From assembly GCA_017465825.1 (NCBI GenBank), contig JAFTVI010000017.1, forward strand, positions 62,001 through 126,000: 64,000 nt of DNA. The letters are read 5' to 3'. The notes beneath the pieces are model-generated. The model was not told where the DNA came from. It was given only the letters and a program-made list of their open reading frames with translations, and made no database searches. This document shows, in pieces, positions 3,979 through 46,602 of the stretch. Source of the stretch: Clostridia bacterium (GTDB lineage: Bacteria; Bacillota; Clostridia; Oscillospirales; Acutalibacteraceae). Every line of letters begins with the position of its first letter. Position 1 is the first letter of the stretch. The position numbers were made by a program, and so were the translations under genes.

Positions 3979-5025
3979 ATGTCAGTAAAAATTTCCGATT
4001 TCGGTGTTCTGGCAAACGGAACTAAAATACAAAAATATACAATTGAAAATTCTCAGGGTACATCAGTATCGGTTATAACATACGGCGCAACGCTTATTTC
4101 TGCTCTCGTTGCGGACAGAAACGGTGTATTCAAAGATGTTATTGTTGGATTTGATGACCTTGAAGGCTGTGTTGAGCGCACAGATTATCAGGGTGTAGTT
4201 GTAGGACCTTATGCCAACAGAATCGGCAACTCTGAATTCAGCATTGACGGCATTAAATACAAACTGAATTCCAATGAAAATGGCGTTACCTGTCTTCACT
4301 CCTGCGGTGAATTCAATACTGCCGTATGGAATGCTGAATTAGCAGATGATTCATCGGTTGAAATGTCTTATGTAAGTCCCGACGGAGTAAACGGTTTTCC
4401 CGGAAGAATCAATGTTTCGGTTAAATATACTTTAACAGATGATAATGAATTAAAGCTTGAATATTCAGCTGTTTCCGATAAAAAGACCGTTATCAATCTT
4501 ACAAATCACGCTTATTTTAATCTGGGCGGCTTTGATTCGGGGCTTATTCTCGACCATACAATGCAGATCAATGCCGATTGTTATACACCTGTTGATGAAT
4601 TAAGCATTCCTACAGGGGAAATTGCGTCTGTAGAGAATACTCCTTTTGATCTGAGAACCGCAAAGAGAATCGGTGATGAAATTGATGCAGACTGTGAACA
4701 GTTGAAGTTTACGGGCGGATACGATCACAATTTCTGTATAAGCGGTTATGACGGTACATTAAAAACTGCTGCTGTTGCATTTGATTCTGTTACGGGACGT
4801 AAGCTTGAGGTTCTTACTGATTTGCCCGGTATTCAGTTCTATGCAGGTAATTTTCTTAAAGGAACCATAGGTAAAAGCGGCAAACCAATGGAAAAAAGAA
4901 GCGGATTTTGTCTTGAAACACAGTTTTATCCCGATACGCCCAATCACCCGGATTTTCCGCAGTGTACATTTGAGGCGGGTGAAAAGTACCACACAGTAAC
5001 AGTTTTTAAATTTTCTGCTGAATAA
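3979..5025 (+). CDS. galM: Aldose 1-epimerase (mutarotase)
   Basis: Interconverts the alpha and beta anomers of galactose or glucose so that kinases can act on them; cytoplasmic. The 348-residue protein is full length for GalM. It shows the N-terminal ITYGATL and PYANRIG strands, the catalytic-His region NLTNHAYFNLGG (about 174-186), and the catalytic Glu in FCLETQFYPDTPNHPDFP near the C-terminus. I place the start at ATG 3979, because AAAGGA at 3964-3969 is nine bases upstream of it but directly abuts the alternative ATG at 3970. It stands alone behind its own promoter. Confidence 0.92.
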   Translation: MSVKISDFGVLANGTKIQKYTIENSQGTSVSVITYGATLISALVADRNGVFKDVIVGFDDLEGCVERTDYQGVVVGPYANRIGNSEFSIDGIKYKLNSNENGVTCLHSCGEFNTAVWNAELADDSSVEMSYVSPDGVNGFPGRINVSVKYTLTDDNELKLEYSAVSDKKTVINLTNHAYFNLGGFDSGLILDHTMQINADCYTPVDELSIPTGEIASVENTPFDLRTAKRIGDEIDADCEQLKFTGGYDHNFCISGYDGTLKTAAVAFDSVTGRKLEVLTDLPGIQFYAGNFLKGTIGKSGKPMEKRSGFCLETQFYPDTPNHPDFPQCTFEAGEKYHTVTVFKFSAE

Positions 5026-28768: not shown

Positions 28769-28775
28769 TTAAATT

Positions 28776-28969
28776 AAGCCTGCTGTGTGCGATAAGCAGT
28801 CACCCATTTTAACCCTACAATCATTTAAACGGGGGCTTAGCTCCGTTACCGGGTATGCAGACCTCCCGCTGTAACCGGCGGACGTTGGGAGCACAAAAGT
28901 ATCGGGCGGCAACCCATCCTGCTATATATGCAGGTTATAATCGGTGGCAGTCGGCACGGTGGGTTTTTT
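28776..28969 (+). ncRNA. ssrS: Probable 6S RNA
   Basis: A GC-rich island of about 194 bases without a plausible ORF. Its ends pair: GCCTGC (28778-28783) with GTGGGT (28959-28964, with G-U), GTGC (28787) with GCAC (28954), and GTCACC (28799-28804) with GGTGGC (28943-28948). A wide open region follows. The inner stem pairs GTTACC (28845) with GGCAAC (28908) and CTCCC (28863) with GGGAG (28887). A small hairpin, CCTGC/GCAGG, lies on the 3' side of the open region. Rod shape, central bubble, extra 3'-side hairpin and U-run end match Firmicute 6S RNA, which sequesters sigma-A RNA polymerase. The opening AAGCCTGCTGTGTG also resembles 6S termini from memory. A family search is needed to confirm it. 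Confidence 0.55.
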
Positions 28970-30631: not shown

Positions 30632-31552
30632 ATGTCAAACAAAGAAAAAAGCTTTAATTCAAAACTGTATGCTATATTGACTTTTGTTGTAATAGCAGTT
30701 CTGCTTGTTGTAATTTGTGTTTCAACATTCACTTCAAGATATACTGCCTTTCATCCCGATGAGCTTGCAAAAACATATGTTGATACCATTGTACAGACCG
30801 GTGACGGTTACAATGCATACAAAAATACACTTGCAAGCTACAGCAGTAAATACGGCGATTACATAAGAAAGTATTATATTTATCCTGCTGTTTACAGGGA
30901 TACGGATTATAAAATCGGTGATAATACGGACGATTTTAAGGGATATAACGATGAAGCCTACAAGAGCGATGCAACCGTTAACGATAACGGCACGCTTTCA
31001 GGTCAGGTTACAGATGCTATGTATCCCTATTATGAGGAGCTTGTAAACACCTACGGCTGGGATAATTATGATGCAATCTATACAAATTACATTAATAAGC
31101 TTATAGATGTGCGCAAGGATATTTTCGGTGATGACTACCTGACCGACGAAATATTCTTTACCGCATTTGAGGCAAACGTTTCAACCTACGGTAACAAACT
31201 GACAGGTACAGAAGATGTGTACGATGAAAACACAGGTGTTCAGCTGAGTTATAAATCAACCGGAATATACGAGCAAGCCTACGGCGATAATTACAAGCTG
31301 ACCGTTAATATCGGTGCAACTCAAAAGCAAACAGATATTGATAAATTTAAGTCGTCTGTTGATATTGAAATTTTAAATTCATACGGGGTAAATATAGATG
31401 ATGTATCTGATGCTCATCTGCTTACAGTTAATGTATTAAATGATAATGAAATTGTTACCTCGGTTGATGTTTTTATGGTAAAAATCGGTAGCTCCTGGTA
31501 TGTGGATAACTTGACAACCGATACTGATATTCTTTATAATTTCTATAAATAG
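30632..31552 (+). CDS. Membrane-anchored extracytoplasmic protein of unknown function
   Basis: Not recognised. The 306-residue protein has a short cytoplasmic N-terminus, one membrane helix (about residues 13-33) and a large outside domain rich in Asp, Tyr, Asn and Thr with few cysteines. The first half is Tyr/Asp-rich, with repeated YK/YD patterns; the last 100 residues alternate hydrophobic and polar residues as in a beta-sandwich (DAHLLTVNVLNDNEIV). GGAGG precedes its ATG, and it is co-transcribed with the GPH symporter, so it may bind sugar, assist the transporter, or be a lipid-independent surface protein. That link is inference from position alone. Confidence 0.75.
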   Translation: MSNKEKSFNSKLYAILTFVVIAVLLVVICVSTFTSRYTAFHPDELAKTYVDTIVQTGDGYNAYKNTLASYSSKYGDYIRKYYIYPAVYRDTDYKIGDNTDDFKGYNDEAYKSDATVNDNGTLSGQVTDAMYPYYEELVNTYGWDNYDAIYTNYINKLIDVRKDIFGDDYLTDEIFFTAFEANVSTYGNKLTGTEDVYDENTGVQLSYKSTGIYEQAYGDNYKLTVNIGATQKQTDIDKFKSSVDIEILNSYGVNIDDVSDAHLLTVNVLNDNEIVTSVDVFMVKIGSSWYVDNLTTDTDILYNFYK

Positions 31553-31560
31553 CTTAAAAA

Positions 31561-31599
31561 TATGGGTAACGGTTATTCCGTTGCCCATAAAGTTTTTTA
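31561..31599 (+). terminator. Rho-independent terminator after the GPH unit
   Basis: TATGGGTAACGG pairs with CCGTTGCCCATA (12 bp, one G-U), followed by AAGTTTTTT. Confidence 0.92.
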
Positions 31600-31615: not shown

Positions 31616-31641
31616 GCTCCAAAAACTTTCGTCTTTGGAGC
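31616..31641 (-). terminator. Hairpin terminator after the small membrane protein gene
   Basis: GCTCCAAA pairs with TTTGGAGC. On the minus strand it is followed by TTGCTTGTTTTT. It lies 15 bases after that gene's stop. Confidence 0.7.
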
Positions 31642-31655
31642 GTTGGTGTGGATCT

Positions 31656-32156
31656 TCATAAGGGAATTATTTTTTTATTTTTTTTAGATTTCTTTTTGCT
31701 TTTAGATGGCATAAAAACATATATCGCAAACACGATACCAGCTAAATGCAAAAGAATTCCCAAAGCAATGCCTACATAGACAGACATTGATTGTAATTTT
31801 TCAATAATCTCATTTGGTAACGCTTTTAATACAAAATAAGCTGCAAGACATATTGCTCCGACTATTGCTGAGGCGGGAAATATAAAACGAATTGCTAGTT
31901 TGTAAACAAAGTCTAAAACTTTCATTCTAAATTCGGACACAGTTTTTGCGGCTGATACACTGCTACGAATTTCCTCTATGCTTTTTTCTCTATGTTCACT
32001 TTCTTTATAGTCGAACTGATCTGTGTTATGAACCATAGTGCTTCTGACTTTTCCATCTGCCGAATAAGTATCTACCCATCCCGTAGTATTAGAATGGCCT
32101 TTTATTTCAGAAGAACCTACCCATACTCCATTTTCATAATGATCCATTTTAGCCAT
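31656..32156 (-). CDS. Small membrane protein of unknown function
   Basis: Not recognised. It has 166 residues: a polar N-terminal part with YENGVWVGSSEIKGHSN and TYSADGKVRS, a charged helix (about 48-75), two membrane segments (about 92-112 and 127-148), and a C-terminal tail of alternating Lys and Ser (PSKSKKKSKKNKK). The start at ATG 32154-32156 is set by GTGGAGG seven bases upstream; a longer frame to 32237 would run through a terminator hairpin. It is preceded by a structured RNA and a strong terminator, so its expression may depend on read-through. Confidence 0.65.
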   Translation of the reverse strand: MAKMDHYENGVWVGSSEIKGHSNTTGWVDTYSADGKVRSTMVHNTDQFDYKESEHREKSIEEIRSSVSAAKTVSEFRMKVLDFVYKLAIRFIFPASAIVGAICLAAYFVLKALPNEIIEKLQSMSVYVGIALGILLHLAGIVFAIYVFMPSKSKKKSKKNKKIIPL

Positions 32157-32174
32157 ATTTAACCTCCACAAAAT

Positions 32175-32205
32175 AAAAAAAGTGCGCCAACCGAAGTTAA
32201 CGCAC
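32175..32205 (-). terminator. UUCG-capped rho-independent terminator / possible attenuator
   Basis: On the minus strand GTGCGTTAAC pairs with GTTGGCGCAC (10 bp, two G-U) around a C(TTCG)G tetraloop, followed by seven T. The RBS of the next gene starts about nine bases after the T run, so this stem either ends an independent small RNA or gates that gene. Confidence 0.92.
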
Positions 32206-32381
32206 CGAAAACGCAAACTCCGATTGTCGCCAAACAAAACCAGACAAATGGGAATGACTAATCATCGCATACTATCCGTGGAATTTGCAGTTTTGCAAAA
32301 TTCAAAAAAGTACACGAAAAGATATAGTATTCCCATAAAAGAAAATACCATTCCCACATCATTTATTCGGTTTTGTTTGGC
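32175..32381 (-). ncRNA. Unassigned structured small RNA, about 207 nt, 6S-like rod
   Basis: A promoter, a rod-shaped body and a terminator line up. The RNA would start at G 32381, the first base of the closing stem: GCCAAACAAAACC (minus) pairs with GGTTTTGTTTGGC over 13 bp (32229-32241 with 32369-32381). Further stems, in plus coordinates, are 32246-32249/32361-32364, 32250-32256/32349-32355, 32269-32275/32324-32330, 32277-32280/32313-32316 and 32281-32289/32294-32303 (one bulge). A large internal loop separates the second and third blocks (32257-32268 against 32331-32348). About 23 bases later the UUCG terminator follows. The shape resembles 6S RNA, but I recognise no family. It may instead be the leader of the downstream membrane protein gene. 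Confidence 0.6.
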
Positions 32382-32387
32382 ACAAAT

Positions 32388-32417
32388 AGTATATCACAAA
32401 AGTTTGCGTAATTTCAA
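32388..32417 (-). promoter_or_regulatory. Promoter of the structured small RNA
   Basis: On the minus strand TTGAAA (32412-32417), 18-base spacer and TATACT (32388-32393). The predicted start falls at 32381, exactly at the base of the RNA's closing stem. Confidence 0.75.
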
Positions 32418-32426
32418 TACTTTAAT

Positions 32427-32477
32427 AAAAAATCCCACTTGACATCTTTCAAGTAAAACTGAAATTGGCATAGTGGG
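32427..32477 (-). terminator. Second hairpin with T tract downstream of tRNA-Leu
   Basis: On the minus strand CCCACT pairs with AGTGGG, followed by ATTTTTT. A nested alternative is ACTTGA with TCAAGT. It is either a back-up terminator for tRNA-Leu or a short independent RNA. Confidence 0.55.
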
Positions 32478-32492
32478 TTATATGCTTTGATA

Positions 32493-32539
32493 TAAAAAAT
32501 TTGAGTATTCACAGGTCAAATCCCTTATGAATACTCAAA
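32493..32539 (-). terminator. Rho-independent terminator of tRNA-Leu
   Basis: TTTGAGTATTCA pairs perfectly with TGAATACTCAAA, then a T run on the minus strand, directly after the tRNA. Confidence 0.92.
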
Positions 32540-32541
32540 AA

Positions 32542-32628
32542 TGGTGCCGGTGACCGGACTTGAACCGGTACGGTGTTGCCACCGAGGGATTTTAAGTCCC
32601 TTGCGTCTGCCTATTCCGCCACACCGGC
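32542..32628 (-). tRNA. tRNA-Leu (anticodon TAA), CCA encoded
   Basis: On the minus strand the acceptor arm GCCGGTG pairs with CACCGGC, followed by discriminator A and an encoded CCA. The D arm has TGGCGGAATAGGCAGACG, the anticodon loop ACTTAAAAT holds TAA, the long variable arm TCGGTGGCAACACCG marks a class II tRNA, and the T arm reads CCGGTTCAAGTCCGG. All arms pair. It is a single gene with its own terminator. Confidence 0.97.
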
Positions 32629-46449: not shown

Positions 46450-46602
46450 GGAATTGAAAGTCCGATTTCAGTCATGCGGCGTGTTGGTCCTGTGCGACGG
46501 AGCGCTGTGAACCATGTCAGGCGGGGAACCGAGCAGCATTAAGCGGTAAGCCCGTGCGATACAGTTCGCCTGCTCGCCGTATGACCGAGGTCGGACTTCT
46601 TT
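46450..46602 (+). ncRNA. ffs: Signal recognition particle RNA, small bacterial type
   Basis: RNA of the SRP that binds Ffh and targets membrane proteins. The apical domain is recognisable from GTCAGGCGGGGAACCGAG and AGCAGCATTAAGCGG, the conserved GGAA tetraloop and internal-loop motif. GTCATGCGGCG pairs with CGCCGTATGAC, and AAGTCCGA (46458-46465) pairs with TCGGACTT (46591-46598), which ends in a T run and so doubles as terminator. It lies just upstream of dnaX, its usual place in Firmicutes. No Alu domain was seen. Confidence 0.93.

Follow-up and report, generated by a model that had tools for sequence, protein, structure and literature searches.

A widespread family of leader RNAs in Clostridia, without a match in Rfam 15, and its probable role in transcription attenuation

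Architecture of the leader in the window

The window examined here, a 64,000-nucleotide stretch of a Clostridia genome, raises the question of what kind of RNA is encoded on its minus strand between 32417 and 32175. From the letters alone, a preliminary description had placed there a rod-shaped small RNA with its own promoter and terminator, leaving three options: a second 6S-like RNA, another regulatory RNA, or an attenuating leader for the membrane protein encoded from 32156. The last of these is the option supported by our analysis, based on the position of 106 of 133 related copies ahead of a ribosome-binding site (RBS) and open reading frame (ORF) and on a covarying antiterminator. Judged from sequence comparison, the RNA is probably a 5′ leader that acts in cis as a transcription attenuator of the gene behind it.

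The promoter first described, TTGAAA and TATACT with an 18-base spacer, was confirmed as a sigma-A-type promoter at 32388–32417 (−), matching the consensus at 10 of 12 positions and carrying a TG before the −10 element. The −10 ends 6 nt ahead of the predicted start, 32381, which is the first base of the closing stem (P1). From this start to the end of the U tract, the predicted leader RNA spans 212 nt (32170–32381, −). Its minimum free energy is −75.6 kcal/mol, compared with −44.0 (sd 4.3) in 200 dinucleotide shuffles (z = −7.4), so that the proposed rod fold stands, as does the 13-bp P1 stem, formed by 32369–32381 and 32229–32241 (−) and indicated by both folding and covariation. A covariance model also matched the leader (G000:C9:94171-94381; 165.5 bits, E 6.2e-30), the window sequence being itself part of the model.

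Within the rod, folding predicts a side hairpin at 32327–32348 (−), present in a long class of copies and missing in a short class, and an apical hairpin, P4, at 32281–32303 (−). P4 is predicted to mask the 5′ strand of a pseudoknot (strand b, 32280–32294, −), which in the window copy is an imperfect complement of the 3′ strand (strand c, 32208–32221, −); both strands were assigned by pairing and covariation. Overlapping strand c is the 5′ strand of a putative antiterminator (32216–32226, −), whose 3′ strand (32188–32198, −) corresponds to the terminator loop together with the 3′ arm, again by pairing and covariation. The UUCG-capped intrinsic terminator reported past the stem was found at 32181–32206 (−), recognizable by sequence and covariation and followed by the U tract. 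It begins 22 nt after P1, and the switching strand is located in this gap.

Immediately 3′ of the U tract are an RBS (GGAGG) and the ATG at 32156, so that an intrinsic terminator precedes the gene and the leader lies between promoter and RBS, as it does in most copies. The ORF behind it (31656–32156, −) encodes a 166-aa orphan protein with, by eye, hydrophobic stretches in its C-terminal half and a Lys-rich tail. No Pfam match was obtained for this protein at the curated cut-off, and among 40 genomes a match at E ≤0.001 was present in its own genome and in none of the other 39. A terminator-like hairpin (31616–31641, −) is recognizable by sequence directly behind the gene. The same strand carries, upstream of the leader, a tRNA-Leu (TAA) at 32542–32628 (−), with an inverted repeat and a run of T after it. 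At 31511–31589 (+), a 12/12 promoter match within the end of a coding region is followed 20 nt on by a terminator-like hairpin, possibly by chance.

Searches of Rfam and the literature

For assignment to known families, the window leader was searched against Rfam 15, where it matched no family at the gathering score. This agrees with the preliminary description, which had recognized no family. It had also proposed the covariance search against Rfam; the 6S-like identity that it had entertained found no place there, since even at E ≤10 the region 32100–32540 gave eight sub-threshold matches without RF00013 among them, and 106 of 133 copies precede an RBS and ORF. At eight further leader loci, searched at E ≤0.1, no match fell on any leader; the three matches obtained there (a tRNA, a group II intron and a sub-threshold sau-6072) all lie off the leaders. 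Neither known riboswitch families in Rfam 15 nor the T-box model matched in the window or at the eight further loci. The group II intron match (RF00029; L180, 2433–2498, −) precedes a leader copy by about 230 bases.

The other 6S candidate of the window, noted earlier at 28.8 kb, is real: RF00013 matches 28774–28969 (+), just 3′ of a DUF1292 gene, with a score of 55.6 bits. The bacterial small SRP RNA (RF00169) was matched at 46481–46578 (+) with 52 bits. Searches of the open literature, including PMC8040213, PMC11109978, PMC8632094 and PMC2864571, returned no description of such a leader in the open-access abstracts and passages covered.

Family size and distribution

BLASTN with 251 bases of the locus hit 14 places in its own genome; 15 of the 60 genomes searched, its own among them, gave matches, and near-full-length hits show 65.5–72.7% identity. 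Thirty-two copies were extracted, of which 31 were aligned (alignment A1, found by blastn with no pattern imposed). The copy left out, L040_4283, was matched whole by the covariance model R1. On its own genome, R1 gave 19 matches, 15 of which were counted as copies and 4 of which were antisense or weak; one of the 15 (G000:C28:196815-196974) has a 5′ half that looks degenerate. The element first taken for a lone small RNA is thus one of about 15 copies of an uncatalogued family in this genome.

At E ≤0.001, and counting its own genome, matches were found in 7 of 11 genomes of the genus sample, a patchy distribution, in 42 of 120 of the family sample, in 85 of 245 (35%) of the order sample and in 77 of 291 (26%) of the class sample; these samples and that of the phylum overlap. 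In the phylum sample the own genome was the only one of 398 to match, with about 15 class members in the part listed and 5 candidates scored per genome. Copy counts in the samples from family to phylum are lower bounds, 5–19 candidates having been scored per genome. We conclude that the leader RNA family is real and widespread, and that it was not found in Rfam 15 or the searched literature.

A pattern scan of named genomes (genome_contigs) matched at least 118 stretches; with the pattern in 2 stretches of viral_contigs, an origin in phage was rejected. Among the matches listed, titles are mostly those of Clostridia metagenome-assembled genomes (MAGs), many from animal gut or rumen, and include Oscillospiraceae, Ruminococcaceae, one Monoglobus and one Christensenella. 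The Monoglobus MAG holds the per-genome maximum of 18 matches, and the one named strain listed, the cultured Pumilibacter intestinalis CLA-AA-M10, has a single match (L221/L239). One match titled Bacteroides (L151) lies on a contig also present as G031:C27 of the window's own family.

For the comparisons below, 5 antisense matches and 5 cut by the end of their stretch were left out of a set of 89 matches. For loci L107–L226, 100 of 120 were searched, and the Pumilibacter locus (L221) is outside the resulting 133 copies. The duplicate L151, equal to L057, was removed from the unique sets and is still within the 134-row folding and swap tests. Across the 133 copies the RNA measures 162–255 nt, with a variable rod sequence.

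Covariation of the predicted helices

Covariation was assessed in A1 and in A3, an alignment of 103 copies gathered by a pattern in the P1 3′/pseudoknot region, which limits variation in that region. Two controls were used: shuffles, which do not correct for relatedness, and slid pairings, which keep it. In A1, 96.3% of cells in P1, the pseudoknot and the terminator were jointly paired, against at most 48.3% in slid controls, with 112 double changes against 27.6 in shuffles. Double changes occurred in 11 of the 14 pairs of the closing stem. The alignment of homologues had been proposed as a check on the stems, and it bears out covariation of closing stem and terminator in both A1 and A3.

For the A1 antiterminator (32226–32216 with 32198–32188), 91.2% of cells were paired (slid controls at most 59.1%) and 18 double changes were counted (3.3 in shuffles). 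The number of pairs with double changes was matched by 4 of 500 shuffles; the count of pair types, as high in 243 of 500, was not above them. In A3 the antiterminator was 94.0% paired with 61 double changes, slid controls reaching at most 62.4% and 7. In A3, neither the number of pairs changed on both sides nor that of pair types exceeded the shuffles, of which 284 and 461 of 500, respectively, were as high, so that two of five measures on A3 and one on A1 fell within the shuffles, and the A3 antiterminator pair 287–309 was unpaired in 46 of 102 rows.

In A3, column 278, which has no partner in P1, pseudoknot or terminator as modelled, varies in step with column 325 in 99 of 102 rows (AU 57, UA 29, UG 13, other 3). 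Within the terminator, column 325 covaries with 309 as well. Since 278–325 and 325–309 both covary, we take it that antiterminator and terminator are both kept by selection. The terminator is thus opposed by a mutually exclusive and covarying antiterminator, despite the measures that did not exceed shuffles.

For the A1 pseudoknot, 96.3% of cells between strand b (32294–32280) and strand c (32221–32208) were paired, and 5 of 15 pairs carried double changes. The terminator likewise covaries. In A3 the pseudoknot had 32 double changes against 6.9 in shuffles, one slid control having 25, and double changes fell in 4 of 15 pairs, a value reached by 75 of 500 shuffles. Compared across copies, covariation therefore supports the closing stem, the terminator and the antiterminator, and more modestly the pseudoknot, which has a strand in common with the antiterminator.

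Conservation is concentrated in the switching strands, which most own-genome copies have in common. Near P1, a single unpaired base, an A beside the stem, is invariant in A1. Apart from this A, the tetraloop, the U tract and a short UU.G immediately 5′ of strand b, few unpaired positions are conserved.

Folding energies and swap tests

When the 3′ module was folded by itself, the antiterminator was its minimum free energy structure in 111 of 134 rows and not in 23. With the 5′ part shuffled (20 rounds) this number fell to a mean of 3.7 and at most 8, and with 5′ parts swapped between copies to a mean of 57.7. Median energies were −17.7 kcal/mol for the module, −14.0 for the terminator alone and −16.0 for the pseudoknot duplex. 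Pseudoknot strands paired more strongly with their own partner than with swapped ones (−17.6 versus −15.2 kcal/mol overall), and among the 12 own-genome copies none of 200 swaps reached the cognate strength.

P4 is predicted to mask strand b strongly in the 28 short copies, with a mean of 11.3 bases against 10.1 (maximum 10.9) after swapping, and partly in the 106 long copies, with 7.1 bases against 6.3 (maximum 6.7). Over 30 swaps this preference was small and consistent.

Position relative to promoters and genes

Comparison of the copies establishes a common promoter register. Among 109 unique copies, 106 have 60 upstream bases, and in 75 of these the −10 ends exactly 6 nt ahead of the stem. 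A promoter of at least 9/12 with its −10 ending 4–10 nt ahead of the stem was present in 76 of the 106, compared with 15 of 954 random places. The usual place before a gene emerges equally from this comparison: a Shine-Dalgarno (SD)-led ORF starts within 80 nt past the U tract in 86 of 108 copies and at 406 of 3687 random places. In the enlarged unique set, 106 of 133 copies have an RBS and ORF within 80 nt downstream; the 27 without include 5 of the 12 own-genome copies in the set.

For three own-genome copies with no gene behind (L031, L034 and L035), a common 32-base hairpin-forming repeat was found downstream, at 4277, 4501 and 4972, respectively, its only three sites in the own-genome stretches examined. 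This repeat speaks against the leader reading. In L117, L164 and L196 a further leader copy follows in place of a gene. Tandem copies, about 200–900 nt apart from start to start, occur at these three loci and at L227 (G001:C25), L234, L235, L236 and L237.

A peptide-leader attenuator was also considered. SD-led upstream ORFs of at least 8 codons were found in 22 of 133 copies, whereas 10 shuffles gave 33.2 on average; being rarer than in shuffles, they make such an attenuator unlikely.

Diverged and interrupted copies

The tandem array at L227, from a genome of the same genus, comprises three copies with a different closing stem and a terminator without UUCG. Each copy has its own terminator, and the array precedes a gene that is BspA-like by eye. 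All three retain terminator and pseudoknot, and in one of the three the antiterminator is the predicted fold of the module. A similarly altered terminator without UUCG is present at L233 in the own genome, where terminator, antiterminator and pseudoknot could all be formed when short pieces were folded.

Four loci (L058, L229, L230 and L231, all G031) have the same 42-base sequence interrupting the leader in or beside the terminator loop. Of its six occurrences in G031, the five checked are no more than 55 bases from a contig end. It resembles the terminus of a repeated mobile element with this terminator as its target. At L033 the flanks are duplicated.

Downstream proteins

Proteins encoded behind the leaders (at least 80 aa) were compared with neighbours from a simple ORF caller, signal and membrane calls being made by a simple hydrophobicity rule. 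By this rule, 76 of 89 downstream proteins look exported or membrane-bound (N-terminal signal, lipobox or membrane segment), as do 205 of 612 neighbours (Fisher p = 5e-21); the bias is a comparative result that holds for lipoproteins too, with 19 of 89 against 32 of the 612 other genes at the same loci.

At E ≤0.001, Pfam matches among 106 downstream proteins were led by BspA-type LRR (13), zinc ribbon (6), Listeria-Bacteroides repeat (6), dockerin (4) and DUF6809 (3), followed by many one-member families (best 25 of 71 families listed). With NCBIfam at E ≤0.0001, surface-protein models again ranked first; these thresholds are not curated cut-offs. No metabolic theme was seen among the 25 commonest Pfam families. 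An anti-phage defence regulon was rejected, seven PADLOC models being matched by one member each of the 106 proteins (E ≤1e-4).

Lookalike proteins of about 90 aa, recognized by eye, recur behind the leader at L032, L033, L037, L232, L233, L038 (own genome) and L040; among the 106 proteins scanned, DUF6809 matches 3. Closely related genes of a single genome are preceded by leaders of the long class at L032 and L033 and of the short class at L233.

Proposed mechanism and alternatives

Transcription would start at the first base of P1, and the rod and P4 would fold. Four helices, P4, pseudoknot, antiterminator and terminator, would then form a chain of mutually exclusive alternatives. P4 would hold strand b, which could alternatively pair with strand c to form a pseudoknot between P1 and the terminator. 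The alternative partner of strand c and the bases preceding it is the terminator, whose loop and 3′ arm would be taken up in the antiterminator. Strand c would emerge from the polymerase just ahead of the terminator. Were b free, the b/c pseudoknot would occupy c, the terminator would fold, the gene would be off and an RNA of about 200 nt would be released. Were P4 to retain b, c would be available for the antiterminator, RNA polymerase would read through and the gene would be on. Some signal acting on P4 or the rod would presumably tip the switch. That these alternatives form in the cell we infer, and the direction proposed for the switch follows from which helices have strands in common.

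As to the nature of the signal, a trans-acting RNA-binding protein or small RNA could contact strand b, P4 or the rod in all copies and so set the antiterminator. We consider this plausible, if short of probable. It would accord with conservation centred on the switching strands, common to most own-genome copies, and with copies preceding unrelated genes; the preference for cognate strands, however, shows only that the helices themselves are intramolecular.

Alternatively, rod and pseudoknot might constitute an aptamer for a metabolite or second messenger, the ligand stabilizing the pseudoknot (off) or P4 (on). Such a small-molecule riboswitch appears rather doubtful. In its favour, the attenuator layout is that of many Gram-positive riboswitches, an unpaired A beside P1 is invariant and a UU.G just before the pseudoknot strand conserved, and a dispersed set of surface-protein genes would suit a second messenger. 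Very few unpaired bases are conserved outside helices and tetraloop, however, and no aptamer pocket is evident; this scarcity argues against a classical small-molecule aptamer and makes a protein or RNA trigger at least as likely. RNA length (162–255 nt), the variable rod sequence and the lack of a metabolic theme among the commonest downstream families also count against it.

A stand-alone small RNA, 6S-like or base-pairing, with the gene behind it incidental, is improbable. Its own promoter and strong terminator, the tandem copies with several terminators and the 27 of 133 copies, 5 of the 12 own-genome ones among them, that lack an SD-led ORF within 80 nt could be accommodated by it, and the small RNA with its own terminator of the preliminary description survives to the extent that termination would release an RNA of about 200 nt. 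That terminator, however, has a covarying antiterminator, an SD-led ORF follows within 80 nt in most copies, the genes behind are biased in class and RF00013 does not match.

That the family is a mobile or repeated DNA element, such as a promoter cassette, whose RNA structure serves spread and not regulation, is highly improbable: up to 18 matches per genome, the patchy distribution in the genus, the orphan gene behind the window copy, the duplicated flanks at L033, related genes behind differing leaders (L032, L033, L233) and the downstream repeat common to three own-genome copies would suit it, but copies are mostly oriented toward a gene, identity between them is low and the switch helices covary.

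Returning to cis-acting attenuation, we tentatively suggest a new class of pseudoknot-gated RNA switch by which many Clostridia, mainly known from gut metagenomes, may co-set a changing, partly lineage-specific group of surface and secreted proteins in response to a single signal, perhaps a new second messenger or RNA-binding regulator. If this is right, a switch outside Rfam 15 would be present in about a quarter of sampled class genomes (26%) and a third of the order (35%), mostly before genes for membrane proteins, lipoproteins and secreted proteins. The base pairs that switch would already be named, and the trigger would show what these largely uncultured bacteria sense when altering their surface.

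Comparison with known systems

Many Gram-positive riboswitches and attenuators are leaders built from a terminator, an antiterminator and an anti-antiterminator. The family described here has the same position between promoter and RBS and the same exclusion between antiterminator and intrinsic terminator. It differs in its putative anti-antiterminator, a long pseudoknot for which the hairpin at the tip of a variable rod would hold one strand, in its very few conserved unpaired bases, and in its many copies per genome before unrelated, mostly envelope genes. In Clostridia, c-di-GMP riboswitches also occur in several copies before surface and envelope genes; their architecture differs, and no Rfam match to them was obtained here.

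In T-box leaders, too, an antiterminator competes with a terminator, but the present family gave no match to the T-box model of Rfam. Leaders targeted by ANTAR proteins carry a two-hairpin site. In the ANTAR-target leader RNA of PMC3369931, an antiterminator is reported to compete with a terminator, a likeness to the present family. Like 6S RNA (RF00013), the leader has its own promoter and a rod closed by a long stem; the match to RF00013 is lacking. In 6S RNA a central bubble mimics an open promoter and serves pRNA synthesis; no conserved bubble sequence stands out in A1. As an attenuator, then, the leader would be of a known kind, and its architecture together with the set of genes behind it is new to us.
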